Assembly (NCBI GenBank): GCA_904420085.1
Contig: CAJFUA010000021.1
Span: forward strand, 1 to 64,000
DNA: 64,000 bases
Direction: 5' to 3'
DNA from: an uncultured Eubacterium sp.
GTDB taxonomy: Bacteria; Bacillota; Clostridia; Lachnospirales; Lachnospiraceae
Positions 24,969 through 51,989 of the stretch are shown here, in pieces. A program made the translations under genes and the position numbers. Numbering within the stretch: position 1 is the stretch's first letter; every line of letters starts with the position of its first letter. The notes beneath the pieces were generated by a model that ran no database searches, was not told where the DNA came from, and saw only the letters and a program-made list of their open reading frames with translations.

Positions 24969-26171
24969 TTATCTGATGATATCCTGTTCACTGTTTTCCT
25001 GCTGTAAACTCTGATTTTTCTCTCCATAGCCTTCCGGCACTCCTAGTTTTTGATAAACTTTCCCCAATCCGGTTATTTTTCCGGTATAGGTATCCAGTAA
25101 AGCAGAACCACTGTTCTTATAGTCAGACTTACTGAAAGAAAACCATGAATACCGTTCCACATATTCCCGCTTATCCAACTCCGGAAGTATAATTTTCATA
25201 TAATTAATGGCGGACTGTCTTGTCTGTTTCGTCCAGTCCGGCACACCGGATAAGGCAAATTCCGTAATCCAAATCGGTTTATGATACATTTCCCATGACT
25301 CGTCCACAATATCCAGAAATGCCTTGGCTCCCTTTTCATCATGCCAATTCCAATAATGGTGCAGTGCAATAAAATCCACATCCATTTTATTTTCTTCCAT
25401 TTTTTCCATAAACGGCTGAAACCAGTCGGTGGAAATAGAAGGCCAGACAGAAACTGCGGGACTTCCCACATATAACCCTTTGTTCAGCAACGGTTTCATT
25501 CCTTCTATTGCCGTATCGACGGACATATTGGACTGATCCGGTCTGTCCGGTTCATTGAAAGCCAAAAGATATTTGTATCCTCTTTTCGGAAGCACCTCTA
25601 CTTCATTTCCATCGGTAGGTGCTGTCGTCCAAAACATTGGTACAAACTGCAAATCCTGAAAAGATGTATAATTATGTTTGCTGATACTCCAGTTATAGTA
25701 CCATGAAACATCCCAGTCAGTGGCATTGACATTGGCAGCCATCTCTTTATTCATACACAATCCTTTTTTATTGACATAAAAGGAAAATATATCCGAATAA
25801 ATCACACCGCCATGTTTTAAATTCGTCTTAATATAAGCATCATGTCTGGAAACCGTTGTTGTATAGTATTCAAAACTTGTTTTGTCACCGGATACCTTCC
25901 CCTGTTTTTCTCCATTCACATAAATTTCATAGCTTTCTACTTCATCCATATCTTCGGCAGAATTCCACTCAATGGTAATATAACCTGCCGGCTGCAGACT
26001 TCCCTTTTGGGGCAATACAATTGCTTCAGTCTTCCACTGATTCTTTAATTTGTTAATCCTGGAAATCCTTTGATTTTTTGCAATGTTCAGCCACAAAATA
26101 CTTCCTATAACAACCACAGCCAATAGGATTCCAAGCCACAAAAACAATTTCTTTTTCTTTGTCTGATTCAT
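24969..26171 (-). CDS. Membrane-anchored GH128-type endo-beta-1,3-glucanase
   Basis: A 400-residue protein with an N-terminal membrane helix (residues 9-29) and no cleavage site, so it is probably tethered outside the cell. Residues about 48-135 form a small beta-sandwich beginning LPQKGSLQPAGYITIEWN, shared with its three neighbours. The catalytic part has clan GH-A/GH128-like glutamates in AFNEPD (Glu207, acid/base) and WITEFA (Glu304, nucleophile), with VDFIALHHY between. ATG 26171 was chosen; a longer frame lacks support. It lacks the basic FN3 tail of its paralogues. Confidence 0.82.
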   Translation of the reverse strand: MNQTKKKKLFLWLGILLAVVVIGSILWLNIAKNQRISRINKLKNQWKTEAIVLPQKGSLQPAGYITIEWNSAEDMDEVESYEIYVNGEKQGKVSGDKTSFEYYTTTVSRHDAYIKTNLKHGGVIYSDIFSFYVNKKGLCMNKEMAANVNATDWDVSWYYNWSISKHNYTSFQDLQFVPMFWTTAPTDGNEVEVLPKRGYKYLLAFNEPDRPDQSNMSVDTAIEGMKPLLNKGLYVGSPAVSVWPSISTDWFQPFMEKMEENKMDVDFIALHHYWNWHDEKGAKAFLDIVDESWEMYHKPIWITEFALSGVPDWTKQTRQSAINYMKIILPELDKREYVERYSWFSFSKSDYKNSGSALLDTYTGKITGLGKVYQKLGVPEGYGEKNQSLQQENSEQDIIR

Positions 26172-26310
26172 ATATTCCAACTCTCCTACAATTATCGTAT
26201 ATTTATCCTGACTACAATAAATCGGACATCTTGAAGCACGGCTTCCCGTTGTGCCCTTACTCGGCAAATGATATTTTATGTAAACACAATATTGCTTGGG
26301 GCTTTTGCTA
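26172..26310 (-). other. Leader region with a small hairpin, function unknown
   Basis: The 139 bases before the membrane-anchored glucanase are more GC-rich in the middle (26216-26265) than other gaps. They can form a hairpin around ACGGgaagCCGT flanked by GCAC and GTGC. No known riboswitch pattern was recognised. Confidence 0.25.
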
Positions 26311-26344
26311 TAAAGAAAAGGGTCTTTTACAACCCTTTTCTTTA
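26311..26344 (-). terminator. Terminator after the second GH128 gene
   Basis: Stem TAAAGAAAAGGGT with its complement and an eight-base loop, ten bases past the stop codon at 26354; the T-rich part lies in the descending arm. Confidence 0.65.
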
Positions 26345-26353
26345 TGTTTCATG

Positions 26354-27880
26354 TTATTTTTTAATTTTAACGCTCTTTACTTTACTCCATGAACCATACA
26401 GTTTTTTCTTTCCATTTTTGGCATAGGCTCTTGCTTTATAGTAATAGCGTTTCTTTTTCTTAAGCTTCTTAAAGGTATAAGTAGTTTTTTTAATGGTCTT
26501 GCTCCAATATCCCCGAAACTTTTTGTTATTACAAATCCGAATCTGGTAACCTGCGGCATTTTTTACCTTTTTCAAGGTGATTTTTACTCTTCTCTTCTTC
26601 AGATTTTTAACAGACTTGATGGTTACTTTTTTCGGTTTCTTAACCTTTTTTGTCGTTGTCACTTTTTTTGCATTGAGGTACTTTGTATCCTGACCCGACT
26701 TTTTCGGATTCGTCAGATTTCCTGCCTTATATTCCGTGGTCGGATTTCCATAATCTCTATAAATTTCCCCTGCCGGTGTTAATGCACCGGTGGCATAATA
26801 CCAAAGTCCCGCATCATCCTGTTTTGTATCACGGGAAGCGGCATCAAAAGAGAAAAATGAATATCGCTCAACGTAAGATCTGGCATCCAATCCCGGTATC
26901 ACTGCCTTTACAAACTCTGCCGTTCCACTTCTGGTAATATACTCTCCCGTGGTAGATAATTCCGTAATCCAAATCGGTTTATGATACTTATTCCAACACG
27001 CATCTACTACCGTAGTTAAGAACCATTCCGCCATTTCGGCTCCCTGATAATTATCCGGATAACAATGTATCGTAATAAAATCAACATCCAGATTCGGATT
27101 TGCATTGATTTGGTTCATAAACGGCTGAAACCAATTTGTAGAATTGGTTGGCCAGATAGCTGTAGCCGGTGATCCCACTCTTACGCCTTTGTTCATAAAC
27201 GCCGGCCAAAAGGAAACGGCATCAGCAACACTCATATTCGCCTGTTTCTTAAAATCCGGTTCATTATACCCTAGCACATATTTTGCTCCGGTGGCAACTG
27301 CCTGATTCACCTTTCTTTCACTATCTGCCAATGAATTGGAATTCCATACCATAGGTACGAATTCTATTTTCTTAAAGTCGTCAGCAAATTCTATTCCCTG
27401 CTGTGGATTTGATTTCAAATTTTCAAACTCTGCTAACCTCCAATTATAATACCAGGATACATTGATCTCATACGGAGCAATATGCCTTCCCATACTGGAA
27501 TCTATACATATTCCTTTTTTGGAAACGCGAAACTTTACCGTATCCGTATATACTTTTTCCCCATTAGAAAGCGTAGCTTCAACCCACGCAGAATGATAGT
27601 TCACCTTTGTCGTATAAAACTCATAGGAAGTTTTTGTAGTGGTAGCTTCCAGTTTACCGTCTACATATAACTTATAAGTTTTTACTTTTCCATAATCATT
27701 TGCATTGGTCCAGTTGATATCGATATATCCGGCTGCTACCAAATTGTTATAAGAGGGACTGGTAATTGCAAACTTCGTAAACGCTTTTACCTCTGTTGAC
27801 AAATTCTTATTTGTCAAATTTACAGAAAAAATCATTGTCAATGCTAATATGAAAGACAATATCTTCTTAAACCCTTTCAT
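26354..27880 (-). CDS. Secreted GH128-type endo-beta-1,3-glucanase with basic FN3-like tail
   Basis: A 508-residue secreted protein. A signal peptide covers about residues 1-33. An N-terminal beta-sandwich (38-122) precedes the GH128-like catalytic domain with Glu207 (GYNEPD) and Glu307 (WITELS). After a short linker, residues about 412-508 form a fibronectin-III-like domain extremely rich in lysine and arginine. There is no LPxTG or S-layer motif, so the basic tail may hold the enzyme on the polyanionic wall (inference). GAGG precedes the start; the next paralogue ends 17 bases upstream. Confidence 0.83.
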   Translation of the reverse strand: MKGFKKILSFILALTMIFSVNLTNKNLSTEVKAFTKFAITSPSYNNLVAAGYIDINWTNANDYGKVKTYKLYVDGKLEATTTKTSYEFYTTKVNYHSAWVEATLSNGEKVYTDTVKFRVSKKGICIDSSMGRHIAPYEINVSWYYNWRLAEFENLKSNPQQGIEFADDFKKIEFVPMVWNSNSLADSERKVNQAVATGAKYVLGYNEPDFKKQANMSVADAVSFWPAFMNKGVRVGSPATAIWPTNSTNWFQPFMNQINANPNLDVDFITIHCYPDNYQGAEMAEWFLTTVVDACWNKYHKPIWITELSTTGEYITRSGTAEFVKAVIPGLDARSYVERYSFFSFDAASRDTKQDDAGLWYYATGALTPAGEIYRDYGNPTTEYKAGNLTNPKKSGQDTKYLNAKKVTTTKKVKKPKKVTIKSVKNLKKRRVKITLKKVKNAAGYQIRICNNKKFRGYWSKTIKKTTYTFKKLKKKKRYYYKARAYAKNGKKKLYGSWSKVKSVKIKK

Positions 27881-27897
27881 CTCACTACCTCACGTTG

Positions 27898-29445
27898 TTA
27901 CTTTGTTTTGACTTTCGCTGAAAGCCGGTTGCTCCAACGGTAATACATTTTCTTACCATTGATTGTTTTGTATGCTCTTACCCTGGCATAATATCTAATC
28001 TTTTTATATTTTTTCGGTTTTTTCTTAATTAACCTTCTCTGTTTCTTTGTAAATTTAATCTTTATCGTTCCGGATGCTTTTTTAACTCTCTTTATTTTTG
28101 CACCTTTCAAACTTTTCTTTGTACCATATTTAACTTGGTAACCGGTTGCTCTCTTAATTTTCTTAAGATTATATTTTAATGCCTTTTTCTTTCCTGTCAG
28201 TCCGAAAAGAGAAGATTTCTGTTTTGCAATACAGCCTTTTACAGATGTATCTGCACTGGTTCCGGAAGCAACTCCATATGTTCTCGCATTGTAACCTGCC
28301 GGGTTGCCAATTTGAGCGTACATTTTTCCTATAGTCGTCAATGCACCTGTTTCATAATCCCAAAGACTGGATGCACTGGCTGAAGTTTCCCTGTAATTTG
28401 GGCAGAACCAGGAATATCTTTCCACATAACTTCTTTCGTTCAATCCTTTACATACAATCTTTAAAAAATTCTGAGCGTTTTTAACAGCCTTTGGATTGGC
28501 TTTATCTGCATTCCACAATGCAAACTCCGTAATCCACATAGGTTTTTTATACTTCTGATAAGTTTCATCAATCAGCATCAGAAATTCATATGCGGTATGC
28601 GTATTATAATTTTCATAATATTTGTGTACTGCAATAAAAGACATGTTCGCCTTATCAGAAGCAGTCAGACCATTCCAGAAAGGTACCCACCATTGTGTTG
28701 ACTCTACAATCGGAGTAGCCGTAGAAATTGCCGGAGAGCCCAATCGCATGTTTCCTTTACTTGCAACAGTGTCTCTCCATCGGTATACCATGGTTCCCGG
28801 CTGCGTATTGGCCTCACTGGATAAATCCGGTTCATTATATGATAACATATATTTGTATCCTTTTTTGTTGGCATAAGCACATCTGTCTTTAATATCCACG
28901 ATATCATTGCCATAAGTCATTGGTACAAATTCCGTATCATAAAATTTTGTGTTTTTATATCTCAAATCTTTAAAGGATTTATAACCCCAGTTATAATACC
29001 AGCCAATATTCATCGCTGCAGGATCCACCGCTGCTCCCATATCCCTGGTATTCACACAGATACCTTTTTTCGTGACATAAAATGTCCGCACGGCCGTCTT
29101 TACGCTGGTTCCGTTTTTAAGATCCGCTACTACCTGAGCTGTATGGGCTTTTACTTCTGTCGTATAAAATTCACAAGCCATTGTTTCCCCGCCCGGTGCA
29201 ACCGTCTTCTTTAAAGCACCATCCACATAAACTTTATACTGTTTTACGTTATCAAGTGAATTGCTCCATTTTACATCAATATAACCTGCACCTACTAATT
29301 TTCCCTGCTGTGGACTGACAATCCCTGTACTCTGCCACTCGGAAACAGTAGTCGCACTAACATTTTTTACGGCCGGAATAGTCATTCCTGAAAACAGCAT
29401 TGCAAATGCGATGGTCATAGTAACTATTTTTTTTATTATTTTCAT
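27898..29445 (-). CDS. Secreted GH128-type endo-beta-1,3-glucanase with basic FN3-like tail
   Basis: A 515-residue paralogue of its neighbours. Signal peptide residues 1-31, beta-sandwich about 40-127 (VSPQQGKLVGAGYIDVKW), catalytic domain with Glu205 (SYNEPD) and Glu307 (WITEFA), then a basic FN3-like domain from about 420 to the end. ATG 29445 has GGAGG five bases upstream; the TTG at 29457 would absorb that site. It is probably co-transcribed with the next GH128 gene. The role is predicted to be endo-cleavage of beta-1,3-glucan chains outside the cell. Confidence 0.83.
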   Translation of the reverse strand: MKIIKKIVTMTIAFAMLFSGMTIPAVKNVSATTVSEWQSTGIVSPQQGKLVGAGYIDVKWSNSLDNVKQYKVYVDGALKKTVAPGGETMACEFYTTEVKAHTAQVVADLKNGTSVKTAVRTFYVTKKGICVNTRDMGAAVDPAAMNIGWYYNWGYKSFKDLRYKNTKFYDTEFVPMTYGNDIVDIKDRCAYANKKGYKYMLSYNEPDLSSEANTQPGTMVYRWRDTVASKGNMRLGSPAISTATPIVESTQWWVPFWNGLTASDKANMSFIAVHKYYENYNTHTAYEFLMLIDETYQKYKKPMWITEFALWNADKANPKAVKNAQNFLKIVCKGLNERSYVERYSWFCPNYRETSASASSLWDYETGALTTIGKMYAQIGNPAGYNARTYGVASGTSADTSVKGCIAKQKSSLFGLTGKKKALKYNLKKIKRATGYQVKYGTKKSLKGAKIKRVKKASGTIKIKFTKKQRRLIKKKPKKYKKIRYYARVRAYKTINGKKMYYRWSNRLSAKVKTK

Positions 29446-29485
29446 ATTTACCTCCAAAAAATTGTTCTACAACCCTTCCAATCCT

Positions 29486-29528
29486 ATAAAAGGGCGGAAT
29501 AAGCTATGAATATATAACTTTTCCACCC
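29486..29528 (-). terminator. Terminator after the 29551 gene
   Basis: Stem GGGTGGAA with TTCCGCCC (one G-U pair) followed by TTTTAT on the minus strand. Confidence 0.6.
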
Positions 29529-29550
29529 TCTCATTTTTACTTAATCATCA

Positions 29551-30918: not shown

Positions 30919-30949
30919 TTTAGTCCTCCCGGCTTTTTATGTAAATATA

Positions 30950-30980
30950 CAGTAACCCAATGCTAATGCATTGGGTACTG
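30950..30980 (-). terminator. Hairpin between two carbohydrate-binding-protein genes
   Basis: Arms CAGTAACCCAATGC and GCATTGGGTACTG with a four-base loop, but only a weak T run follows on the minus strand. It could be a terminator or an RNA processing site. Confidence 0.45.
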
Positions 30981-31007
30981 CAATTTAATTATGTAACCAA
31001 TCAACAA

Positions 31008-32150
31008 TTATTTCTTAATCTTAATCTTCTTTGTAGCCCATGCACCTGTCTTATATCCGGCAGCTTTTGCTCTAACTTTAACAGTATATCTTCTGCCTTT
31101 TTTAAGTTTTTTAACTGTCAATTTAACTTTCTTTGTTGTGTATGTCTTCTTTCCAACTTTTACCTGATAAGATTTTGCCTTAGAAACTTTCTTCCAAGTA
31201 ATCTTAATTGTACGTTTCTTTGTGTTCTTAACTTTCAGTTTTTTAACTTTTGCTAATTTCTTCTTTGCTTTAACAGCCGGAGCTTTTGTAGTAGCAGTAG
31301 TAGGAGCCTTTGTTGTTGTGTTCACATTCTGGCTCGGTGTTGTAGGCTGAACAGTTGGTTTGTCCGGTGCCTCCACAAAATCTTTATTCTGACCTTCATC
31401 TACAACAGAAAAGTCTGATACAATAACAGTACCACTCCAATTATTCTCTATTTTATAATCTTCAATATATGTACTCATAGGTTCGCCTGCATATCCATAT
31501 TCAGCATCAAAAGCTCCGAGCATAAGTGATACAGAGATTTGTTTTGCTGAAATCCAGTTAGTGAACTTATATGTATATGTCTGTGGTGTTGTTGTTATTT
31601 TGATTGCCTGATAATTACTTCCATCTTCTAAACCAGCTGTATCAAATGGTGGAACAGACCCTTCATCCGGATTATCCGGATTATTTAACACATCACTTCC
31701 AAAGCCAATATAAGCGTATTTTGTTTTGCTTGCTTGAGCTGTAAATGTAACTGTGTATGTGTGACCTGCTTTTGCTGCAATATTTTTCATAGAAGCTTCA
31801 ATAGCCCATGGATTAATCTGGTTAGGGGTAACGTTCCATTGAGCATCCCAACCAGTATTACCAATATCAATTGTAAAGCCATCTGCTACAGAACTTGCTG
31901 TTTTTTCTTCTATCGGTGCCCCTGCTCCGGAACTCCAACCTGTAATACTTTCATCAGCACTGGTTTTTACACTATTAATAATACCATAATTATTTGGCTG
32001 ACCCGCATAATCTCCACCTGCTTTAAACGTCCATGTACCTAATGATACCTCGTCTGCCTTTGCTGTTGTGGCGCCAATTCCAACTGCCAATGTGGCAACC
32101 AACGCTACTGTTGTAACGCCTGCTAATATTTTGTTGAAAACCTTTCTCAT
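31008..32150 (-). CDS. Secreted carbohydrate-binding-type protein with Thr-Pro linker and basic FN3-like tail
   Basis: A 380-residue protein with a signal peptide (1-32, TTAKA), a jelly-roll domain (about 35-255) containing NTGWDAQWN, NPWAIE and TYTVTFTAQAS, a Thr/Pro/Ala-rich linker (about 265-292), and a basic FN3-like domain (about 297-380). The arrangement is binding module, flexible spacer and wall-associated tail. AAGGAGG precedes the start. It has its own promoter with two palindromes, unusual for this window. Confidence 0.68.
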   Translation of the reverse strand: MRKVFNKILAGVTTVALVATLAVGIGATTAKADEVSLGTWTFKAGGDYAGQPNNYGIINSVKTSADESITGWSSGAGAPIEEKTASSVADGFTIDIGNTGWDAQWNVTPNQINPWAIEASMKNIAAKAGHTYTVTFTAQASKTKYAYIGFGSDVLNNPDNPDEGSVPPFDTAGLEDGSNYQAIKITTTPQTYTYKFTNWISAKQISVSLMLGAFDAEYGYAGEPMSTYIEDYKIENNWSGTVIVSDFSVVDEGQNKDFVEAPDKPTVQPTTPSQNVNTTTKAPTTATTKAPAVKAKKKLAKVKKLKVKNTKKRTIKITWKKVSKAKSYQVKVGKKTYTTKKVKLTVKKLKKGRRYTVKVRAKAAGYKTGAWATKKIKIKK

Positions 32151-32178
32151 TTTAATTCTTCCTCCTTTACTTCTTCAC

Positions 32179-32198
32179 TTGAAAACTATTATTTTCAA
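32179..32198. promoter_or_regulatory. Palindrome downstream of the 31008-32150 promoter
   Basis: A perfect inverted repeat, TTGAAAA and TTTTCAA with a six-base centre, lies just after the predicted start of transcription. It is a candidate operator. Confidence 0.45.
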
Positions 32199-32206
32199 CT
32201 GTCATT

Positions 32207-32235
32207 ATTATAGCATAAGAAAATTGTTTATACAA
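32207..32235 (-). promoter_or_regulatory. Sigma-A promoter of the 31008-32150 gene
   Basis: TTGTAT, 17 bases, TATAAT on the minus strand, about 57 bases before the start codon. Confidence 0.65.
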
Positions 32236-32257
32236 TGTGAAAATGTTATTTTTCACA
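32236..32257. promoter_or_regulatory. Palindrome abutting the -35 box
   Basis: A perfect inverted repeat, TGTGAAAA and TTTTCACA with a six-base centre, lies directly upstream of the -35 box. It shares its centre spacing and GAAAA/TTTTC core with the palindrome at 32179. Confidence 0.5.
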
Positions 32258-32354
32258 ATAAAAACTGTTTTATTTCTCTATTTATAACAATTTTATACAT
32301 ATGTAAATATAATCATCTGAATATCCAATGTGATTTTGAATTATTTTTTTTTAT

Positions 32355-34064
32355 TTATTTCTTTATTTTCACCATTTTGACTTTTGACCACTTGCCATAT
32401 CTTCGATTATTTTTTGCTCTGACTCTAAAATAATACTTCTTTTTTTTCAATTTTTTTATTTTTATGTATGTTTTTTTTGTGATTTTAGTCTTTGCTTTTT
32501 TAAATTTTTTATTTGTAGCGTATTGTACCTGATATTTTTTCGCTTTAGAAATTTTTTTCCATTTCAAACTAACTGTTCTTTTCTTGATATTTTTTGCTTT
32601 TCTAATTACAACTTTTCCAGGTTTTACACTACTATATTTTTCTTTAGTCGACGTTGTGGTAATGTTATCTTTTGTCGTTTCTTCTTTTTTGACAGAAGTC
32701 CCTTCAGGTACCGTAGTTTCTGTTTCCGGTTCTACATATACAAACATTTCTTCATCTGATATGGTTTGTGCAGCGTAACCCTCCGGATTTCCCATGTTGC
32801 AATACATTCTGCCTAATTCGGTATACGCACCTGTATCATAATCGAACATCGCCGTAGCACCAGAGCCATCATAATCGTCAATTTCATTTTTACTATCCAC
32901 ATTATAAGGGAACCAGCAATATCGCTCAACATAAGGTACCTTGTCCAAATATTCAACAATACCTGTCAGATATTCTGCCATTTCTTGTCTTTTCTCTGGA
33001 ATTTCATAACTATAATCTGTTGATGTTCCTTTTTTCCCAAAAACTCCTGTTTCTGTTATCCAAATAGGTTTATGATAAGTATCCCATAGTTTTTGAACAG
33101 CATTTTTTAACCCATTTAAGTCTATCCGATCCATATAATAGTGTAGAACAACTGAATCGATTTCTTCTCCTATGCCCGCAACCCATGTTTTTGATGCTTC
33201 ATCAAGATAATCATGATATAATCCCCACGAGCCGTCATTTAAAAAATTATTCAAGCATATATAATCACCATTCATAAATCTTTGCAACCAAGCAGAATCC
33301 CCACCCGGTGCGGCCGGTGCCGGAGAACATTTTCTTATTTTCAATGGAGATATGTACTCTTTCCAAATTGGAATTGCATCCCAAAAATTCATATTAGCCT
33401 GTGATTGTATATCCGGTTCATTAAAACCTAATATATAATTTGAATCGGTGCTGAAACTTTTCATCATTTCTAAATTATCTTCTCCACCGCCCCACATCAT
33501 CGGAATATGGTCCACTCCTTCATCAATACTGTTATTAAAAGCTTCCGTTGCCCAATTATAGTACCATGAACAGTTAAGTTTCTGTAACGAAACCTTATCA
33601 CTCATATCTCCACCTAAAGCTAAACCTTTTTTAGAAACATAAAATGTGCGTACTTCTGAAACATACTCATTTGTTCCGTTATCGGCTTTTATGATAATTT
33701 CATGTTTGCTCACTGTCGTCGTATATACTTCTGTTTTCCCTTCATCCTCTGAAGTAAAAGTCTTTATTTCAGCTTCTCCCGTGATTTCCTCTCCAATATC
33801 TGTTTTAACAATATTATTGTCAATCCAATACATTGGTTTTCCATCCAGATAAACCGTATATGTATATCCTTCCATAGAATTGTCAAATTCCACGTCAATG
33901 TAACCAGCTCCAATCAATTCTCCTTCTGCCGGAACTGTTATGGCATTTTCTTTCCACAAATCCACATCTGTAGCTGCTTCAACATTTTTTGTATAAGTAA
34001 TTCCGCCTGCCATAAGACCAAATACAAGTATTAACGAAATCACTTTTTTAAACACTTTTTGCAT
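32355..34064 (-). CDS. Secreted GH128-type endo-beta-1,3-glucanase with basic FN3-like tail
   Basis: At 569 residues this is the largest of the four paralogues. Signal peptide 1-30; beta-sandwich about 42-145 with an extra acidic insert near 80-112; catalytic glutamates Glu216 (GFNEPD) and Glu338 (WITETG); a longer loop region between them (about 250-300) than in its paralogues. A Thr/Glu-rich linker (about 445-480) joins the basic FN3-like domain. AAGGAG lies seven bases upstream of the start and a sigma-A promoter about 40 bases upstream. The longer loops may give a different chain preference (inference). Confidence 0.83.
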   Translation of the reverse strand: MQKVFKKVISLILVFGLMAGGITYTKNVEAATDVDLWKENAITVPAEGELIGAGYIDVEFDNSMEGYTYTVYLDGKPMYWIDNNIVKTDIGEEITGEAEIKTFTSEDEGKTEVYTTTVSKHEIIIKADNGTNEYVSEVRTFYVSKKGLALGGDMSDKVSLQKLNCSWYYNWATEAFNNSIDEGVDHIPMMWGGGEDNLEMMKSFSTDSNYILGFNEPDIQSQANMNFWDAIPIWKEYISPLKIRKCSPAPAAPGGDSAWLQRFMNGDYICLNNFLNDGSWGLYHDYLDEASKTWVAGIGEEIDSVVLHYYMDRIDLNGLKNAVQKLWDTYHKPIWITETGVFGKKGTSTDYSYEIPEKRQEMAEYLTGIVEYLDKVPYVERYCWFPYNVDSKNEIDDYDGSGATAMFDYDTGAYTELGRMYCNMGNPEGYAAQTISDEEMFVYVEPETETTVPEGTSVKKEETTKDNITTTSTKEKYSSVKPGKVVIRKAKNIKKRTVSLKWKKISKAKKYQVQYATNKKFKKAKTKITKKTYIKIKKLKKKKYYFRVRAKNNRRYGKWSKVKMVKIKK

Positions 34065-34203: not shown

Positions 34204-34211
34204 TTTCTATA

Positions 34212-34841
34212 TTAATCTTCTATATACTCTAACTTGCTTACCGACACTTCATAAGCAACATGCTTTTCACTTTCTTCCTCGTTGATTTTCTTAATATATT
34301 CGCGGCTCTGTACCCTGCCCCATATCTGTACATGTCCGCCAACCTCGAATGTGGAGGCGTATCTTGCATTTCTTCCCCATGCGATGCAAGGAATATAATC
34401 TGATTTGCCATACGGACGGTTTACTGCAATAAGCAAATCTGCAATTTCACGTCCTAAAGGTGTTTTTCTATAAATCGGCGGTTTGCATATATATCCATCC
34501 AGAAAAATCTGATTTGTCTTTCCTACTTCCAGATTTTCTTCTACTTCTTCCCACTCTCTCACAAATATGGAAAGCACTAACTTATTTTTCGTTCCTTCAT
34601 GGCGGTTATACGACCGAAACTGACCTGACACTTCTATCAGTTTTCCCATACAGTCCTCATTCACATCAACCAGTCGTTCGGACACCATCAGCGGAATCAC
34701 ATCGGTCAGTTCACTCAATCTGTCTACGGATATATCTACTATGTAGAATCCTTCTCCAAACACCTCGTGGCTGAACCGGAACTCCGATACAATCTCCCCT
34801 ATAATGCTCACTCTGTTGTTTTCAATTACTTTGTCAATCAT
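34212..34841 (-). CDS. Single-stranded DNA-binding protein-like, two OB-type domains
   Basis: A 209-residue cytoplasmic protein. The C-terminal half (about 105-205) has an SSB-like OB fold: NQIFLDGYICKPPIYRKTPLGREIADLLIAVNR, then SDYIPCIAWGRNARYA and GGHVQIWGRVQSREY. The N-terminal half (about 8-98) looks like a second, divergent OB fold (NRVSIIGEIVSEFRF...GKLIEVSGQFRSYN). It lacks the acidic C-terminal tail of replicative SSB, so it is probably an accessory paralogue. A good AAGGGGG site precedes the start. It interrupts the glucan-related genes with its own terminator. Confidence 0.75.
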   Translation of the reverse strand: MIDKVIENNRVSIIGEIVSEFRFSHEVFGEGFYIVDISVDRLSELTDVIPLMVSERLVDVNEDCMGKLIEVSGQFRSYNRHEGTKNKLVLSIFVREWEEVEENLEVGKTNQIFLDGYICKPPIYRKTPLGREIADLLIAVNRPYGKSDYIPCIAWGRNARYASTFEVGGHVQIWGRVQSREYIKKINEEESEKHVAYEVSVSKLEYIED

Positions 34842-35049: not shown

Positions 35050-35922
35050 TTATTTTACTTTTACTCTCTTTGCCTTGCTGTATGCACCTGCTACATTTGA
35101 TGACTTAGCGATTGCTGCAACCTGAACTTTAACTCTCTTCTTTGATTTTGCCTTTACTGTTAATGTTGCTTTCTTTGTCTTGTATACTTTTGAACCAACT
35201 TTAACTTTGTATGACTTAGCACCCTTAACTTTACCAAACTTAACGGTTACTTTGCCTTTCTTTCTTGACTTAACAGATTTCAGTTTTGGCTGCTGAATTA
35301 ATGTAAACTTAGTTACTGTAAGAACTGTAGCTGCTGTAAAATCTCCATTAGCATCTTCTGCCAATCCGTCTACTGCAGACATCTTAAACTGATTCTGGAA
35401 TACGCCATATCTTACCGGAGCATCTGCATCAGTTGTTACATTTTCTCTGTCGCCCACATCTCCTCCTACACCAAAGTAAATGGAGTTTGCATTTGCTTTC
35501 GCTTTAAACTTAACGTTAACTTTTTTTGTTTTGTTTGCCGGAACTTTTACCCATGTTGAGTAAGCAAGCGTCTCACCTGTGGCAACCTTTACATATACGA
35601 ACTTTGTAACATTAGTAGCCTTAATAGAGAAAGAAAGAGTATATGTCTGCCCTTTCTTAACGCTGATGTTTCTGGCGTTATCGCCCTTTGAGCCGTCAAT
35701 ATAAATCTGGCCTCCCCAGATGCCGCCCCAGCCTACAGCGTCAACTGCTGCAGTAAAGCCTGATGCCTTGTTTGATGTTAACTTTCCTTCAGCACCTTCA
35801 TACCATCCTTGTGAAGCACCGAAGTAACTTCCCCATGTTGCACCAAAACATGTAGTTCCCATAGCTACTACAAGAGTAAGAGCCATGATTGATGCTGCAA
35901 TTTTTTTTACCAATCTTCTCAT
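35050..35922 (-). CDS. Secreted carbohydrate-binding-type protein with basic FN3-like tail
   Basis: A 290-residue protein: signal peptide about 1-27 (ending CFGA), a jelly-roll domain about 28-210 with VGWGGIWGGQIYIDGS and KGQTYTLSFSIKATN, then a short basic FN3-like domain (about 212-290). The jelly-roll aligns by eye with the two other non-catalytic proteins nearby. AAGGAGG precedes the start. It has its own promoter and a hairpin at the mRNA 5' end, and it ends the surface-protein group. Confidence 0.66.
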   Translation of the reverse strand: MRRLVKKIAASIMALTLVVAMGTTCFGATWGSYFGASQGWYEGAEGKLTSNKASGFTAAVDAVGWGGIWGGQIYIDGSKGDNARNISVKKGQTYTLSFSIKATNVTKFVYVKVATGETLAYSTWVKVPANKTKKVNVKFKAKANANSIYFGVGGDVGDRENVTTDADAPVRYGVFQNQFKMSAVDGLAEDANGDFTAATVLTVTKFTLIQQPKLKSVKSRKKGKVTVKFGKVKGAKSYKVKVGSKVYKTKKATLTVKAKSKKRVKVQVAAIAKSSNVAGAYSKAKRVKVK

Positions 35923-43223: not shown

Positions 43224-43257
43224 ATTATTTCCTACTTTCCATACTTTTCTCTTAAAT

Positions 43258-43286: not shown

Positions 43287-43327
43287 TTTATTTACATATA
43301 TTTTTCTTGAAGTTTTTACATTTTTTC

Positions 43328-44053: not shown

Positions 44054-44825
44054 TATTCTCTCCCCCTGATTCAAATAATTTTGGATGTAAAATGATATGA
44101 TATTCATTATTGGAACTTAATTTTCCCTCAAACAGACCAAGTATGACATTTCTATATATTATGCCCTCTACCTCCATCTGCTCCATGATACATGCCTTCA
44201 TAAGTCCATTGCTTTTTCCCACGGACTGATATGGCACATACAGCATTTTGGTTTCTTCTGAAATCAATCCGTTCAGCTTTTCTTTTTCTATGATGGAAAC
44301 CGGCTTTTTCGTCAACGGATCCATTAATTGATTTCCCGTATCTTTTAATCCCCTGACACATATCGTCTGATTTCCTTCTGTTATTTTTGCATAATATATG
44401 ACGGACTGACGTCCTATCACTGCAAGAACTTTTCTGATTCCCACCGTCAACAGCCCGCATGCTCCAAAGACGATAAACAGTACTTTCCACATATTACCAC
44501 CGATTTGAAAAGCATTGATGATTCCGTTCAATAAAAATGCCGTAAAATAAATAAACAAAAGGATTTTTAGATTTTCTTTCCATGATACTTTACCAAAAGA
44601 AATCAAAATCATCACTTCCAACGCAATGATATATGTCATAAATATACCTGCCGCTGCCATATGGGGCACAAGCATTTCTACTACCGCATACAAGCCGCCA
44701 AACCCGGCAGATAAAATCAATCGGAAAACTGATTTTTTTATTTTTAATACACTGCGCACCACATATAAAACAGAAAAATCCAGAATGAAATTATAGAAAA
44801 AATAAACGTCTAAATATATGTATAT
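44046..44825 (-). CDS. spoIIGA: Sporulation sigma-E processing protease SpoIIGA
   Basis: A membrane aspartic protease that cleaves pro-SigE. The coding frame runs from codon ATA 44823-44825 and gives 259 residues: N-terminus [20 protein letters not shown] (first helix), several further helices, then a cytoplasmic domain with the catalytic motif DTGN ([13 protein letters not shown]). No ATG, GTG or TTG occurs in frame before GTG 44765, which would remove the first helix. GGGGTGA lies five bases before the ATA, so an AUA start is the best reading. The next gene, sigE, overlaps its stop. Confidence 0.8.
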
Positions 44826-45038: not shown

Positions 45039-48000
45039 CTATGGTATCATATTAAATTGAACCGGTTTCATGATATCCGACCAGTCTTTATCAACATATG
45101 CATATCCCGGCTGCACTTTCGTCAGAATTTTTTCATACAGATAATCGTGTTCCTCTTTTGTGCTCATCATCTTATTATCATACAGATAACCTGCCACTTC
45201 AAACACGCTAAACTCTGCCGCATCACTGTATACATATGTTCCGTCTTCCAATAATGCATAAGCTCTTACCTTATACCGCGCAGTAAATGCTTTCACGGTA
45301 AAGGCACCAAATTTCATGATTCTGGCATAATTGGTAGCCGTCTCTGATTCGGAATATCTGTCACTCAATGTTCCGTTGACTGTGGACTCATAAGCCTTCA
45401 CATAATAGTGGTCGTCCCTGACAAACACATCTTCATCGGTAATACCTGTATCTTTGCCGTCCACATTGGAAAGCCCGTAGACCAGCCCCCAATGCTCTAC
45501 TTTCTTATCATTAATTGTGTCTTCTACCGATGCAACAACCCGGAATCCTTCGTGTAAAACGCTAATCTGATATCCTTCAACTTGAATATTCCTATTTGTC
45601 TGAATCTCCTTTTTCATCACTGCTACTTCTGACAGCTGATAACCCCAATTATAATTTCCATTCGTAAGATTTATCCGTACATATTTTACCGTATCCTGTG
45701 AATAACTGCTTACATCTACTTTATCTTCCAATGCTTCCGCATATGTGACTTCTGTTTTATCCAATACTTTCTCATAATGTATTCCATCGGATGAAAACTG
45801 CACATTGTATGCCGTAGCATTGGTATTATCTGCCTTAAATGCCAAAATAATTTCATCAATCAGATACTTGCTGACATTCTCTCCTAAATCAATGGTAATT
45901 ACGGCATTCTGTTTTGCCCACATGGTCTCCACCACGTCCGCCAAATCTTTGGAAATCTTTCCGTCTGTCAGAACCTTGGCATTCTGGCTGCCTTCATTTT
46001 CGTAAATATCTTCCACGAAAACATCTGCACCTTTTGCCAGATTACGCTCAGTATCAATATAATGTACAAGCGAACCGTCTTCTACAAATACCGTTGCACG
46101 CAACGGATCAGAATATTTTCCCTGGTAATAGGACATAGCCTGCAGTTCATGGGTTCCGTAAGATACATTTTTTACAGTGTAAGTACCGGCACCTGTAGCA
46201 TTTTCACTAATACGCTGTCCATCCAGCAGTACAATATATTGGTAGCCTTCCTGTTCTTCTCCTGCCTTGATTGTGTAGGTGATTTCATGAACATTTTCTG
46301 AAACTGCGTAGAATTGTGCCGGAGCCTCACATTTCTGCGTTTCCGTATACTGCAGATTCTGCTCTGTGCTCAGCACCGCCACCTCACGGATCTGGAATCC
46401 CCAGTTTTTATGTCCGGTCATAATAATTTTTACATATCTGGTCTTCCCGGTTAATTCCGCTGCCTGCGCTGTATCTATTTTTACTGTATAAGTTCCCTCA
46501 TCTGTATCTTCATAACTCACACTGTCTGTCTTTGCCACCGTAAAAAATTCCACTCCGTTTTCTGAATATTGGATTTCATAATCGTTACAGAAAGTAGATT
46601 CATTTACAAACTTTAACATAACCATATCAAGGCCTGCGGTTTCATAATCGGCTCCCAAATCAATCAGCAGATATTCCTCTGTACGTGACTGATCCCAATC
46701 TGTAGATACATAAGAGCCTTCCAAATCTCCATCTGTCAGCACATCCGTATCCTGACTGCCCTCTCCTGCATAAATGGATGAAATCGTCACTTCTTTCCCA
46801 AGAGCCGCATTGTATAATTCATCAGAAACCATCTCTTCCACCGTGGCCGCCGGTCCCACCGTGATATGACAGCTTGCCGTATAATCACCCACTGTCACCG
46901 TCACTGTGGCTGTTCCTTCCTTCTTTGCAGTAACCGTACCAAAACTGTTTACCGTCAGTACTTCCGTATCGGATGAGACCCATGTGGCTGTGGTATCGTC
47001 TGTCGTATCTTCCGGGTATATCATAAGCTCCAATGTCTGCGTGGATTTGTTTTTCATGGTAAGTTCGGACGGTGAAAGTTCAATCTTTTCAATATGTATC
47101 GGAGGCGTTACCGTAATCTTACATACAGCCTTTTCACCATTTGAAATCGTCGCTGCAATCTCTACAGTTCCCTCTTTTATTCCTGTAACCAGTCCCGTAT
47201 CGTCCACGGTAGCAACTTCTTCATTGCTGCTGCTCCATGCTACTTTTTCATCTGTAATCGCTGCCAGCTGCATAGTTCTTCCTATGGCAATATTTTCTTC
47301 TGTTTTACTAAGGGTAACAGTTCCTTTAATGATAATGTCTGCCTGCACCACATCCGACAGAATCATTCCTTTCCGGTAAGTTACCGCCTTGACAATGGAT
47401 GATTTTTCAATGACAACCGGTTCCGTATAGGAAGGAGAGTTTTCTGTAGGATCACTGCCATCCAGCGTATATTTAATTTCTGCTCCCTTTACCGGCGTGG
47501 ACATGGTAATACTCTGTGGCGTATCATAAACGCCGCTGAGCGTTGAGATTGCCGGCATATCTGCCTTGCGGGCGCCATATATTTCAAATTCATATAGAGA
47601 ACTTCCATACTGGGTCGCTCTTTTTTTGGTCTGCATTTTCACATATCTGGCATTGACCGCCTCGAAAGTTGTTTCCACATAACCTTCAGTCCCTGTCTCC
47701 GATGCTACTTTTTCCCATTCTTTTCCATCTATGGAAACAAGAATATCGTAAGCGCCGGCATAGGCTGCCTCCCATTTGATTTTTACGGTATTGACTGTCT
47801 CCGTTTTTCCTAAATCTACCCAGACTGACTCACCAACATCATCTGTGGCAGACTGCCATCTGGTATTTTCCTTTCCATCTGTCACATTCATGGCAGTATC
47901 AGCACCATTTTCCGTGCTTGCCATTGCAGTTTTCCCAAGTGCAAGATTTTCCTGATTTTGAATGGTATCGCCATCAATCTGAATCGTAGCCGCTCCATAA

Positions 48001-51000
48001 GACGAATCAATACATCCCTCTTTCACGGCAACTGCCTTAATGACCGTATCCGTGGAAACGAGTATCTTCTCTCCTGTCTCATACCGAATGGAATCCGTTG
48101 TCGGCGCTGTTCCGTCTGTTGTGTAATAAATCAGGGCATCTGAATCATTGCAGGACAACTCAATCAACTGTGTGTCGTCAAACCTGTGGACACCGGATAC
48201 ATTTTCTTCTACGGTCCCCGCTGTCAAGGAAGTTGCCTTAATGGAAGGCGTGGACAACTGTGTATAAGCAAATGTATTGTCTTCATCAATGGTAAAACTG
48301 ATTAACGATTTTGGTGCTGCCGTCACGGTTCCTGCAACTGTTCCGTCTTCTTTTCTGACTGTAGCCACTCTGTTTTTCTCCGTAGGATTGTATACCTGCG
48401 CCGTATATTTATTTTCTGATTCCTGATAGTAAACAGAACCGGAAACGCCGTCTCCAGTTACTTTATATTGGGAACTTCTGACACCATTTTCTTTTAATGC
48501 ATTGATATACCAGTAAGTCATTGCCGTGTCCGTGTTCTGTACCTTACTGTCATTGGCAAGAAACTTCTCCATGGCACCGTCCGGATCGGTCAGAGCCAGA
48601 AACGGCCACGTAATATGCTGCCAGCCGTTATCCGCCTGAGGATAATCCTGAAGTATTTTATCAATTTCTTCCTGTGTCTTTCCTTCGTTTTGCGCTGCCT
48701 CCACTGCTTTATCCATTGCGATATCTGTATCATCCAGCAGCCCCTGATATATCTCCGCACACCGTTTCTGCTCTGTTCCATAATATGTCAGATATTCCGA
48801 TATGGGCAGCCACTGAATACCATAGCAGTATAGCGGCTGTCCTCCAAAAAATGTTCCATAAAAGTTAATTCCACCATATACCTGCGCTACTACATCATAT
48901 GGCCATGCCTCTACCCAGTTATCACCATCATAGTCAAACCAGTATTGCTTTACTGCTTCCATCTCATTGGTGAACCCGAATACACCTGCATCTCTGTATG
49001 TATCATTTTCTGTAAGAACGCCCCAAAGATACATGCTGACCCAACTAAACAATGACTCGCTGGCAGATTCCTGATTATTTCCGGAATCATTGTCCGCATA
49101 ACCGCCTGCCCAGGAATGTCCTTCATATAAGTCATATGCCCTGAATCTGCAATACTCCTCATCTTTTACCGGATTTGCATAATCCCGGATCAGCATATCG
49201 ATCATATCTTTGTAATCGTTGTAAAATTCTTTGTCATATGTGGCAAGCACTACTGCGCCAAACACAAAGTATCCATATGTAAAATGATGGTCGCAGATGG
49301 CAGCATTGGCGCCAAATTCACTTTCTTTATAATAAATGGTTCCCCAACCGGGATTATAGATAAAATAACTGATATCATCCTCTCCGGAATAGGTAAACCA
49401 ATCTGTCAGACGCTCTTTCAGTCTGGCAAGAAACGTATCCCGCAGTTCCGTCTCGCCTATCTGGTCCGCCATAATAACACCCATTCCCAACGGATGCAGA
49501 TTTTTTCCTTCCCAATAAGCATCTGCGGCAGGATTAATGTTCTTTGTAGCGTTTTCTAACTGTTTTAAATAGCCAAGAACCGCCTCGCTGTCAAAGGTAG
49601 TGTTTCCTTCTTTTGTGCCGCCCGGTTTTGCAAATGTGGGCACCAGTCCTGAGAAATCCGACAGCGTCGAAAAGGAATTGCTTTCTATGGCTTTCATATC
49701 TCCTCTGACAGAAGGATATGTGGCAAAAGCCCCTTCATCATCGGATGAGTTTTTCCATTGATGCGGCAGCATACACATCAATGTGGTATCACTGAATCCT
49801 TCTCTTTTAACATTTGTCTCTGCCTGATATACGGATGTTATTTTTGCATTTTCATCATCATAATCATAAGTAACCGCAGTACCGGTAACAAAGGCATAGC
49901 CGTGTTCATGAAACTTCTGCATCTGGTCTTTGGACTGCATGGTACCAAGAGACATATATCTGTCCGCTCCCATAAACGTTACCCGGATATTTTTTCCTAC
50001 TTTTTTGAACACCGTTCCCTCAGGCAGGTTCAAACAATAATAACTTTTGGATGTATCGGTTTTTGCCTGATTGTCATTATCCGTAATTTCCAGCCCGATA
50101 CAGTCCGCAGTAATGGAACCGCTTTCTAAAATTTCAGCACCCTGTCCGTCAAAGACCGATGTAATATTGGGTGAATTGATTGTAAAGGACCGAGTATCTT
50201 TAAAATCTGAATAAATATATGGAGAACCTTTGACAAATGTGTTTTCCATTGCCACATGGTCATCATCACATAATTGTGCCGTCACCGAAAAGTCTCCATA
50301 TCCCGAAACTTTATCACAGGCAGAAGACGTATCTAAATTTTCCGGTACAATATAAAAATCCGTCTGCGTCTCCGAGATGACCGAAAGGTTTACCGCAGTC
50401 TCGTCATGATCCTGCAGCCATCCGTCAGTGGCCGTGAGAACGCTCAATCCTTTTGTTGAGTAACGTGTTTTAAAAGGAAGCGTACACATAACATTTCCAA
50501 ACCGGTAAATCAACATGGACTGCCACCAGTCATTGCTGTCTATTGGCGTTTGAATATCTTCTGTTTTATAATACGGAACTTTTGCCTGCTCAGAATACAT
50601 GTCATTGGAAAGATAGGAACCCTTTCCTTTTTCTACAACTTCCGTATCAGGCAGTGGTGTTATGGTATGGGTAATTTTCTCTTCCCCCTCCTGATATGAA
50701 TATACAGACAATTCTTTGATACCGATACCGCTTCCTTTTTCTACTTTTGTATATCCGTATATACGGACATATCTGACATTTTCCGCATAAACCTGCACAT
50801 GATCTGTGCTATTTGGCACACCTTTCAGATTGCGATATACCGTCTGCCACTTCTGTCCGTCTATAGAGACCTGATAATCGTATACTTTCGCCGCATCACC
50901 TGTCCAGTCAACGATAATACGTCCTACAGTATAAGCCTGTCCCAAGTCAACCGATAACCACTGATTGATATCATTTTTTGATGTGAAAGAAGTATTTTCA

Positions 51001-51989
51001 TCGCCATCTACAGCATTTTCTGCCAACACGGAAGACTGGTCTAAATTGCCTTCTTCATCGGTCATCCACCACTCTTCTCTCAAACCGGAACATTCCACCT
51101 TTTTGTTTAGGGCAATATTTTCTCCATAGTCTTCCGGTCTTTTTACGACGCCATCCTGTCCGTACACCTGAAATTCATAAAAAGAACATCCATAATCTGT
51201 TGCCCGCTCATTACATACAATTTTTACATACCGGGCAGATGTGGCGCTTAATTCTTCTTTTAAGATTGTATGTTTTAAGTTAGCATCTGTATCTATTTCC
51301 ACACCGTTGTTTCCACTGCTTCCATCAGTCACATTCACCTCGCAGATTCCACTGCCGAGTTCCTCCCCGGTAGTCTTGTCCAACGCCACAACCTTTAATG
51401 TGTGAGTACCTTCTTCTAACTGAATTAATCCACCGGCATCTCCATGTCCGGTAAAGGAATAACCGTCCGGTGCCTTGGCAATGTCTTCTCCATCATACAC
51501 TGCATATTTTGCATTTTCTACTGTCGTCCAATTCGCCGATGTCACCAGCACATTGTCATCATTGTAAGCAACACTGTAGGATATCGCCATATTTACATAA
51601 CTTCCCGGTTTATTTCCTCTTGTATATACGGTCTCCCACTGTTCTTCGTCATCTGAAAACTGAATGTCGTAGGATTTAGCATATGCATCTTCCCAATGAA
51701 TATATATGGAATCAATTTCCGTTGTCTTTCCCAAATCCACATAGAACCATTCATTTTCATCACTCTGACTGGCCTGCCATCTGGTATCTTCCCTGCCGTC
51801 TACTCCATTTTCTCCGGAAAGATTTCCATTTTCTGAACTTACATATACAGGTCTGCCCAGTGAAATATTATATGGCTCATCCGCACCTGACGCTGCCTGA
51901 ATATGAAATATTTTTCCACAAGGACATATCGTTACTGTCATGACTGTGGCAAGAACTGCGGCAGTAACTTTTTTCCAAAATTTTGACAT
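45039..51989 (-). CDS. Giant secreted GH81 endo-beta-1,3-glucanase with CBM32/F5-8C and Ig-like modules
   Basis: A 2316-residue secreted enzyme. Order: signal peptide (1-33); F5/8C domain (41-277) split by an inserted beta-domain (about 133-236); second F5/8C (290-432); GH81 catalytic region (about 450-1180) with CDHHFTYGYF (Asp900) and NNQESASESLFSW (Glu974, Glu978); chitobiase-like module (1285-1335); third F5/8C (1347-1480); another chitobiase-like module; two Big_2 domains (about 1565-1725); two F5/8C-like domains (about 1740-1890 and 1985-2120) around an FN3-like one; and a C-terminal domain of about 190 residues. ATG 51989 has GGAGG upstream. It lies between ftsZ and spoIIGA with its own promoter and terminator. 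Confidence 0.9.
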   Translation of the reverse strand: MSKFWKKVTAAVLATVMTVTICPCGKIFHIQAASGADEPYNISLGRPVYVSSENGNLSGENGVDGREDTRWQASQSDENEWFYVDLGKTTEIDSIYIHWEDAYAKSYDIQFSDDEEQWETVYTRGNKPGSYVNMAISYSVAYNDDNVLVTSANWTTVENAKYAVYDGEDIAKAPDGYSFTGHGDAGGLIQLEEGTHTLKVVALDKTTGEELGSGICEVNVTDGSSGNNGVEIDTDANLKHTILKEELSATSARYVKIVCNERATDYGCSFYEFQVYGQDGVVKRPEDYGENIALNKKVECSGLREEWWMTDEEGNLDQSSVLAENAVDGDENTSFTSKNDINQWLSVDLGQAYTVGRIIVDWTGDAAKVYDYQVSIDGQKWQTVYRNLKGVPNSTDHVQVYAENVRYVRIYGYTKVEKGSGIGIKELSVYSYQEGEEKITHTITPLPDTEVVEKGKGSYLSNDMYSEQAKVPYYKTEDIQTPIDSNDWWQSMLIYRFGNVMCTLPFKTRYSTKGLSVLTATDGWLQDHDETAVNLSVISETQTDFYIVPENLDTSSACDKVSGYGDFSVTAQLCDDDHVAMENTFVKGSPYIYSDFKDTRSFTINSPNITSVFDGQGAEILESGSITADCIGLEITDNDNQAKTDTSKSYYCLNLPEGTVFKKVGKNIRVTFMGADRYMSLGTMQSKDQMQKFHEHGYAFVTGTAVTYDYDDENAKITSVYQAETNVKREGFSDTTLMCMLPHQWKNSSDDEGAFATYPSVRGDMKAIESNSFSTLSDFSGLVPTFAKPGGTKEGNTTFDSEAVLGYLKQLENATKNINPAADAYWEGKNLHPLGMGVIMADQIGETELRDTFLARLKERLTDWFTYSGEDDISYFIYNPGWGTIYYKESEFGANAAICDHHFTYGYFVFGAVVLATYDKEFYNDYKDMIDMLIRDYANPVKDEEYCRFRAYDLYEGHSWAGGYADNDSGNNQESASESLFSWVSMYLWGVLTENDTYRDAGVFGFTNEMEAVKQYWFDYDGDNWVEAWPYDVVAQVYGGINFYGTFFGGQPLYCYGIQWLPISEYLTYYGTEQKRCAEIYQGLLDDTDIAMDKAVEAAQNEGKTQEEIDKILQDYPQADNGWQHITWPFLALTDPDGAMEKFLANDSKVQNTDTAMTYWYINALKENGVRSSQYKVTGDGVSGSVYYQESENKYTAQVYNPTEKNRVATVRKEDGTVAGTVTAAPKSLISFTIDEDNTFAYTQLSTPSIKATSLTAGTVEENVSGVHRFDDTQLIELSCNDSDALIYYTTDGTAPTTDSIRYETGEKILVSTDTVIKAVAVKEGCIDSSYGAATIQIDGDTIQNQENLALGKTAMASTENGADTAMNVTDGKENTRWQSATDDVGESVWVDLGKTETVNTVKIKWEAAYAGAYDILVSIDGKEWEKVASETGTEGYVETTFEAVNARYVKMQTKKRATQYGSSLYEFEIYGARKADMPAISTLSGVYDTPQSITMSTPVKGAEIKYTLDGSDPTENSPSYTEPVVIEKSSIVKAVTYRKGMILSDVVQADIIIKGTVTLSKTEENIAIGRTMQLAAITDEKVAWSSSNEEVATVDDTGLVTGIKEGTVEIAATISNGEKAVCKITVTPPIHIEKIELSPSELTMKNKSTQTLELMIYPEDTTDDTTATWVSSDTEVLTVNSFGTVTAKKEGTATVTVTVGDYTASCHITVGPAATVEEMVSDELYNAALGKEVTISSIYAGEGSQDTDVLTDGDLEGSYVSTDWDQSRTEEYLLIDLGADYETAGLDMVMLKFVNESTFCNDYEIQYSENGVEFFTVAKTDSVSYEDTDEGTYTVKIDTAQAAELTGKTRYVKIIMTGHKNWGFQIREVAVLSTEQNLQYTETQKCEAPAQFYAVSENVHEITYTIKAGEEQEGYQYIVLLDGQRISENATGAGTYTVKNVSYGTHELQAMSYYQGKYSDPLRATVFVEDGSLVHYIDTERNLAKGADVFVEDIYENEGSQNAKVLTDGKISKDLADVVETMWAKQNAVITIDLGENVSKYLIDEIILAFKADNTNATAYNVQFSSDGIHYEKVLDKTEVTYAEALEDKVDVSSYSQDTVKYVRINLTNGNYNWGYQLSEVAVMKKEIQTNRNIQVEGYQISVLHEGFRVVASVEDTINDKKVEHWGLVYGLSNVDGKDTGITDEDVFVRDDHYYVKAYESTVNGTLSDRYSESETATNYARIMKFGAFTVKAFTARYKVRAYALLEDGTYVYSDAAEFSVFEVAGYLYDNKMMSTKEEHDYLYEKILTKVQPGYAYVDKDWSDIMKPVQFNMIP

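Follow-up and report, generated by a model that had tools for sequence, protein, structure and literature searches.

Beta-1,3-glucan is a main glucan of fungal walls, callose and laminarin. The enzyme families concerned, dispersed glucan genes and Gram-positive glucan loci are already known, and we compared the described systems with a cluster of glycoside hydrolase (GH) family 128 and jelly-roll (JR) genes, hereafter the block, at positions 24969-35922 of a 64,000-nucleotide stretch of DNA (the window) from an uncultured Eubacterium sp. of the Lachnospiraceae. According to the accessible part of one report, GH161 genes lie beside genes for laminaribiose-phosphorylase-type GH94 enzymes and ABC transporters, sometimes without the ATPase, and a stepwise breakdown of beta-1,3-oligoglucans has been proposed (PMC6484121). 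Gram-positive polysaccharide utilization loci (gpPULs), as presented in the available sections of another report, are without surface glycan-binding proteins and have carbohydrate-binding modules (CBMs) attached to enzymes instead (PMC10318527). Our analysis pointed to a system of another layout, probably a genus-wide, two-locus Gram-positive beta-1,3-glucan system in which a GH128/CBM4-like block acts at the surface and an import and phosphorolysis locus lies elsewhere in the genome, on contig C8. This reading is built on gene families, conserved gene order, a second locus and fusions of JR domains with GH128 and with one another, all of them read from sequence.

The system shared with the GH161-GH94 clusters of Gram-positive bacteria the phosphorylase pair and the transporter genes, with the ATPase possibly absent, whereas those clusters, in the portion of the report available, comprise intracellular and uptake genes only (PMC6484121); here a distinct block for the surface, kept throughout the genus, goes with such genes, and they are accompanied by a protein related to the binding proteins of that block. 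The mixed-linkage glucan gpPUL of Blautia producta, again as far as the available sections describe it, was alike in its endo-enzyme, transporter, regulator, CBM4 for glucan and phosphorolysis in the cell; in contrast, the CBM4-like proteins found here were encoded by separate genes, and the degrading block lay apart from the transporter locus (PMC10318527). Glucan genes scattered over the genome are likewise described for laminarin in Maribacter, although in the accessible text those are Gram-negative, marine systems with SusC/D and other enzymes (PMC11345257). Compared with Bacteroidota surface glycan-binding proteins (7kwb/7kwc, B. thetaiotaomicron), the proteins of the block were Gram-positive, no SusC/D was seen, and a lysine-rich Fn3 tail stood in place of the lipid anchor, their function being a prediction. 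The catalytic units and motifs were the same as in the solved GH128 and GH81 enzymes (6uaq, 6fop, BH0236), whereas the domain sets differed and the genes here were clustered with stand-alone JR proteins. The combination of a stand-alone CBM4-like surface block, apart from a GH161/laminaribiose-phosphorylase locus with a sister binding protein, appears to be new; we found no description of this locus in the partly accessible literature on GH128, GH81, GH161 or laminaribiose phosphorylase in Lachnospiraceae, a scope from which subscription journals mostly fell away.

In the direction of transcription, on the minus strand, JRc comes first in the block, followed by a single-strand-binding protein gene and then by GH128d, JRb, JRa, GH128c, GH128b and GH128a (the labels JRa-c, for jelly-roll proteins, and GH128a-d were coined in this analysis). 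Profile scans covered the window genes in 24969-44762 plus GH81 and FtsZ, while dapA, dapB, cwlD and divIB were named by reading their sequences. The features of the block, with lengths in amino acids (aa), are as follows.

24969..26171, minus strand: GH128a, predicted membrane-anchored GH128, 400 aa from ATG (open frame to 26267); PF11790 159.8 bits; without a lysine-rich tail
26354..27880, minus strand: GH128b, 508 aa with a lysine-rich C-terminal tail; PF11790 157.6 bits; best solved relative 6uaq
27898..29445, minus strand: GH128c, 515 aa from ATG (open frame to 29457) with a lysine-rich tail; PF11790 148.9 bits
29551..30918, minus strand: JRa, non-catalytic, 455 aa with a lysine-rich tail; no Pfam family; probably CBM4-like through homology to JRb
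31008..32150, minus strand: JRb, non-catalytic, 380 aa; predicted CBM4-like jelly roll and lysine-rich Fn3 tail
32151..32354, no strand: gap of 204 bp upstream of JRb; probable promoter region
32355..34064, minus strand: GH128d, 569 aa, the most divergent of the four; PF11790 137.2 bits plus fn3; lysine-rich Fn3 tail
34212..34841, minus strand: single-strand DNA-binding protein gene, PF00436 58.5 bits; a passenger within the block, outside the proposed function
35050..35922, minus strand: JRc, non-catalytic, 290 aa; predicted CBM4-like jelly roll and lysine-rich Fn3 tail

An earlier note on this stretch, made from the sequence alone, had described four paralogues with NEPD and WITE glutamates, and this description was borne out: all four GH128 proteins matched PF11790 in a Pfam profile scan (137-160 bits, cut-off 21 bits), and each contained one NEPD and one WITE. 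GH128b aligned with the solved structure 6uaq (E 7.4e-30), which we take to be a GH128 enzyme of subgroup I, and both motifs fell within the alignment. In entry 6ufl, a Q occupies the place where the second catalytic glutamate aligns, as a mutated nucleophile would be expected to show. The family assignments of the note, GH128 and GH81, also held in family profiles and in alignments to solved enzymes, and none of the catalytic domains fell outside these families; of the beta-sandwich it had placed before the GH128 cores, the only trace was a Big_7 match in GH128b (21 bits) below the cut-off of 24.1 bits. By sequence relationship, GH128a-d are putative endo-beta-1,3-glucanases. GH128b-d were 33-39% identical to GH128a, whose start is more likely the ATG at 26171, chosen by judgement, which is followed by a strong N-terminal hydrophobic segment. 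The genome contained six GH128 genes in total, two of them outside the block, and six GH81 genes, five besides that of the window.

The relationships of the non-catalytic proteins were examined by profile comparison of the shared JR domain with the tails removed, which gave 98.6% for JRa-JRb, 96.3% for JRb-JRc and 90.4% for JRa-JRc over 49 columns. The predicted models of JRb and JRc were CBM4-type jelly rolls and fit 1gui, and JRa is probably CBM4-like, judging from its homology to JRb; the jelly roll that had been read into all three proteins thus stood for JRb and JRc in their models and for JRa via homology only. In Pfam, CBM_4_9 scored below the cut-off in JRc and did not match JRa or JRb, and an NCBIfam scan returned no CBM family for JRb. 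The JRb profile matched 3p6b with E 1.3e-4, and a sister protein bearing JRb domains (L176) exceeded the CBM_4_9 cut-off (32.8 bits). Most rows in the structural second looks at JRb and JRc were Fn3 matches to the tails, and a family missing from them carries no weight as evidence. Outside the genus, the JR matches covered only the tail (model positions 239-387) among the matches listed.

Further evidence came from fusions in sister genomes. A 972-residue frame in G017, cut by the contig end, joined a GH128 core (127-361) to a JRb domain (405-618) (L179); single chains in G011 (L178) and G007 (L181) ran from JRb through JRa to JRc; another chain in G007 combined JRb and JRc (L180), and L176, from G017, held three JRb-type domains. 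On sequence alone, these fusions link the three JR families with one another and with GH128. JRa, JRb and JRc are named here as candidate glucan-binding proteins. A separate observation concerned G008, in which L175:1283-9274 encodes a secreted-looking protein of 2663 aa in which ten JRb-type domains follow one another; it matched no Pfam family and resembles a multivalent glycan-binding protein.

The conservation of the block was examined among relatives. The window contig (C21) belongs to an assembly (G000) of 2.57 Mb in 156 contigs that is 95% complete and 7.7% contaminated. The relatives set (n=60) comprised this genome, 22 congeneric genomes, 13 from other genera of the family and 24 from other families of the order, and the 37 sampled genomes outside the genus (13 + 24) are referred to as outsiders. 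The relatives were metagenome-assembled Lachnospiraceae, 'Eubacterium sp.' and 'Lachnospira sp.', with sources including sheep abomasum, yak reticulum, goat duodenum and reindeer, suggesting that the window organism is a member of this group and of gut origin. For synteny, one stretch was taken from each of 20 sister genomes, all of the 22 except G001 and G006, and gene presence and the dapA and efp flanks in it were assigned by best BLAST match.

The neighbour comparison in related genomes, named in the earlier note as a check, came out in favour of the block. Its gene order recurred in the sister genomes, and this ordered recurrence argues that the block is more than chance. The dapA gene adjoined it in 19/20 stretches, the remaining one (L037) stopping before dapA, and efp lay on the opposite flank in 13/20; among the other seven, L028 differed and six reached a contig or stretch end. 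GH128c was present in 20 stretches, JRa and JRb in 19 each, GH128d in 18, GH128b in 16, JRc in 15 and GH128a in 11. Several of the absences coincided with contig ends, but GH128d was missing within the stretch in L027, and GH128b in L019, L022 and L024. GH128 was found in all 22 sister genomes but was rare in the 37 outsiders, where a strong match was seen once (G033) next to five partial ones of low score (20-28 bits); GH128 cores also occurred in other Lachnospiraceae, Bacteroidota, Planctomycetota and Actinomycetota.

A tree of 135 GH128 cores, built quickly and without bootstrap, placed GH128a (12 rows), GH128c (21) and GH128d (18) in one clade each, with support of 100, 100 and 99, while GH128b (16 rows) had support of 28 and mixed with dispersed copies. 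The group labels came from best BLAST matches, and the tree test is therefore not fully independent of them. Since a, c and d each formed one genus-wide clade, the main splits predate the spread of the genus, and recent in-place duplication found no support as the sole origin of these three. The in-place duplication proposed in the earlier note was thus partly right, the splits of a, c and d being old and the history of b mixing with that of dispersed copies. That the four genes are recent local duplicates with no joint role beyond dosage is barely credible: they do lie close together and are within the identity range given above, whereas the three well-supported clades, the kept order, and the membrane segment and missing tail of GH128a all argue against this.

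The block was also present in genomes of 1.3-1.7 Mb. In four stretches from such genomes (L168, L171, L172 and L173, from G020, G008, G002 and G021) compared with 42447-44762 of the window, nrdR adjoined ftsZ and the 20 kb gave no match to spoIIGA, sigE or sigG, although the GH128 block was kept. Loss of sporulation in these four genomes is possible.

The second locus, on C8, begins with a JRc relative, a 560-aa protein (with a lipoprotein-like start, by reading), a 1042-aa solute-binding-domain protein and two permeases. These are followed by a 687-aa NHL/Yip1 protein, an 845-aa protein that corresponds to a DUF5696 protein in G013, a 373-aa protein with no family assigned and a third permease, and then come GH16, a LacI-type regulator, GH161, laminaribiose phosphorylase and GH17 at a marginal score (28.3 bits against a cut-off of 28.2). 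The gene order was the same in sister stretches. The JRc relative has a C-terminal hydrophobic segment and aligned with JRc in hhalign (E 3.1e-54, 36% identity). It was matched over its full length in 19/23 genomes of the genus; G016 and G008 each had it in two pieces, G017 had a fragment, and in G015 its tail was missing. It shared a contig with GH161 in 14 genomes. GH161 matched 9qqk at 808 bits along almost its full length (residues 8-1056) and laminaribiose phosphorylase matched 6ggy at 1061 bits (residues 5-872), while NCBIfam left both phosphorylases unnamed (GH149 model 115 bits against a cut-off of 1150 for one, none for the other). GH161 recurred at an identity of at least 79% in 20/22 sister genomes (missing in G015 and G017) and laminaribiose phosphorylase at an identity of at least 71% in 20/22 (missing in G001 and G015), some as fragments; three of the 37 outsiders had GH161 relatives at 43-47% and one had laminaribiose phosphorylase at 63%.

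These genes bear on two earlier statements. The proposed beta-1,3-glucan target was strengthened by the two phosphorylase genes, for GH161 and laminaribiose phosphorylase, that this assembly carries. The stated lack of a transporter, regulator or exo-acting enzyme was true of the block, but these were present on C8, together with the single GH3 of the genome (921 aa, C3), and the lack therefore holds for the block and not for the organism. Regulator, degrading enzyme and transporter, the co-location of a gpPUL, occurred together on C8 (LacI, GH16, permeases and solute-binding protein), whereas the genes in 24969-35922 included enzymes but no transporter or regulator. Pathway gaps should not be inferred from one locus, as the importer genes, the regulator and exo-acting enzymes sat on another contig. 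The two phosphorylases suggest that beta-1,3-glucan products are what the cell handles inside; the natural source may be fungal, plant or algal.

Mixed-linkage (1,3/1,4) glucan of cereals and grasses could instead be the main target, with beta-1,3-glucan secondary. The relatives do come from ruminants and other herbivores, the C8 GH16 weakly matched an endo-1,3-1,4-beta-glycanase model (72.8 bits, cut-off 700), and a Gram-positive mixed-linkage locus is described in the available sections on Blautia producta (PMC10318527). This is nevertheless improbable: both phosphorylases matched laminaribiose phosphorylase and GH161 by a wide margin, and full-score GH94 (Pfam model, E <1e-175) was found in 4/23 genomes and not in the organism's own. 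The genes might also serve a self-made beta-1,3-glucan (capsule, biofilm or store) that the enzymes trim and the binding proteins hold on the cell, as the retention of the block throughout the genus, even in the smallest genomes mentioned, and its place amid housekeeping genes could indicate. Against it, GH161, laminaribiose phosphorylase, the LacI-type regulator and the importer genes with the JRc relative point to uptake as food, making a self-made glucan very unlikely.

For the two-locus beta-1,3-glucan system, the following mechanism is proposed. GH128 enzymes and GH81s would cut beta-1,3-glucan outside the cell while the JR proteins hold the glucan near it, and the anchored JRc relative beside the importer would take over and gather the fragments. 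Inside, GH161 would shorten the oligosaccharides with phosphate and laminaribiose phosphorylase would split the last disaccharide, with laminaribiose, glucose and glucose-1-phosphate as products and the LacI-type regulator in control. Retention at the surface may depend on the tails, as the last 85 residues of GH128b, c, d and of JRa, b, c contained 26-33 lysines and 0-1 acidic residues, a region modelled as an Fn3 domain in JRb and JRc. A simple pattern scan gave no LPXTG-like motif in the block proteins, and the predicted membrane segment of GH128a together with the lysine-rich Fn3 tails, perhaps on acidic wall polymers, may keep the proteins at the surface. In the partly available literature, we found nothing tying lysine-rich Fn3 domains to Lachnospiraceae.

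A broader proposal, to which we give somewhat less than even credence, is that this is a herbivore-gut Lachnospiraceae genus built around beta-1,3-glucan, with vertically inherited stand-alone CBM4-type capture proteins and GH128 enzymes, lysine-rich Fn3 tails and hand-over to a membrane-anchored sister at the importer, a Gram-positive counterpart of Bacteroidota surface glycan-binding proteins that is kept even where adjacent sporulation genes are gone. If the two-locus reading holds, the genus would be a specialist in which every step is named from surface capture to glucose-1-phosphate, and it would offer testable stand-alone capture proteins, which gpPULs, according to the available sections of the report cited, do not have (PMC10318527).

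The intergenic gaps within the JRb-JRa-GH128c-b-a run were 17-93 bp, compared with 204 bp upstream of JRb, suggesting that these genes probably form one run with a promoter in the 204-bp gap. A promoter and terminator scan of 24500-36100 stayed at the shuffle level (42 versus 41.1 and 5 versus 6.6). A 12-bp palindrome (at least 5/6 matched) was found upstream of JRb in 7/16 stretches and of JRc in 1/13, and at neither place in the window, in which AAAACGTTTT with at most one mismatch occurred 7 times versus 5.8 expected. Co-regulation of the block and C8 is not claimed, the operator scans having given no common site.

Several observations weigh against the two-locus system. The homology of JRa to JRc was weak. 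For JRb, 3k4z had the same Foldseek E as 1gui, and for JRc, 3k4z, 3p6b and 1gu3 were within 1 Z of 1gui; none of these alternatives is a laminarinase module, and since CBM4 modules other than the laminarinase type fit equally, the fold does not fix the JR ligand. Scans for CG-centred palindromes on C8 and upstream of JRb and JRc found no common operator of the block and C8. In a scan of 16 C8-type proteins nothing matched an ATPase domain, which leaves the importer incomplete at the C8 locus. With 7.7% contamination in the assembly, a foreign origin of C8 is conceivable in principle, but the sister genomes G012, G013 and G022 have counterparts of its genes at 89-92% identity. Finally, G015 (91% complete) kept the GH128 block and one GH81 and gave no GH161 or laminaribiose phosphorylase match; either the uptake locus has been lost or the assembly has a gap there.

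The earlier note had joined a giant GH81 to the block as one locus spanning 24969-51989.

45039..51989, minus strand: GH81, 2316 aa from the ATG at 51989; F5/8-type, CHB_HEX_C and Big_2 domains; PF17652 142 bits

The 2316-residue protein is real, its ATG having been chosen by judgement within an open frame of 2342 aa from TTG, and its catalytic unit aligned with 6fop (E 4e-75) and BH0236; both the DHHF and the NNQESASES stretch fell within the alignment. The single locus did not hold: about 9 kb of housekeeping genes separate GH81 from the GH128/JR block, and a GH81 gene occupied the site before ftsZ in only 2/9 genomes covering it (the window and G013). It was absent from that site in the other seven, G019, G014, G011, G020, G008, G002 and G021; spoIIGA was gone there too in the last four, and three other open frames lay in between in G011 (L169, from G016, did not cover the site and is outside the nine). 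GH81 was consequently rejected as a member of the block and is a neighbour through lineage-specific placement. As a family, GH81 occurred in 23/23 genus genomes including the organism's own (1-8 matches each, six in its own) and in 1/37 outsiders (G029).

A narrower form of the proposed system would be aimed at fungal walls, with GH81 and GH128 opening the glucan, a chitinase opening the chitin, and the organism grazing on gut yeasts or anaerobic fungi. The six GH81 and six GH128 genes would suit this, as would a GH18 protein of 1855 aa with CBM5/12 in the genome, whose C-terminal region was 43% identical to that of the window GH81. We regard it as possible yet rather unlikely, given that strong GH18 matches (E <2e-63) were found in only 10/23 genus genomes, compared with GH128 and GH81 in all, and that callose or algal glucan suits the core set equally.

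Within the window, 37873-38502 encodes a small Big_14 protein (43.8 bits) between efp and aroDK, with no clear tie to the block. The C-terminal ~190 residues of the window GH81 (45039-45620) had 43-47% identical copies in a GH81 on C65 and in the GH18 protein on C39, and a weaker copy on C26, forming a shared C-terminal domain to which Pfam assigned nothing in the window protein. Four stretches from Lachnospiraceae outside the genus (L079, L083, L084 and L086) had a GH81 gene immediately in front of a GH128 gene, so that this pairing recurs there.

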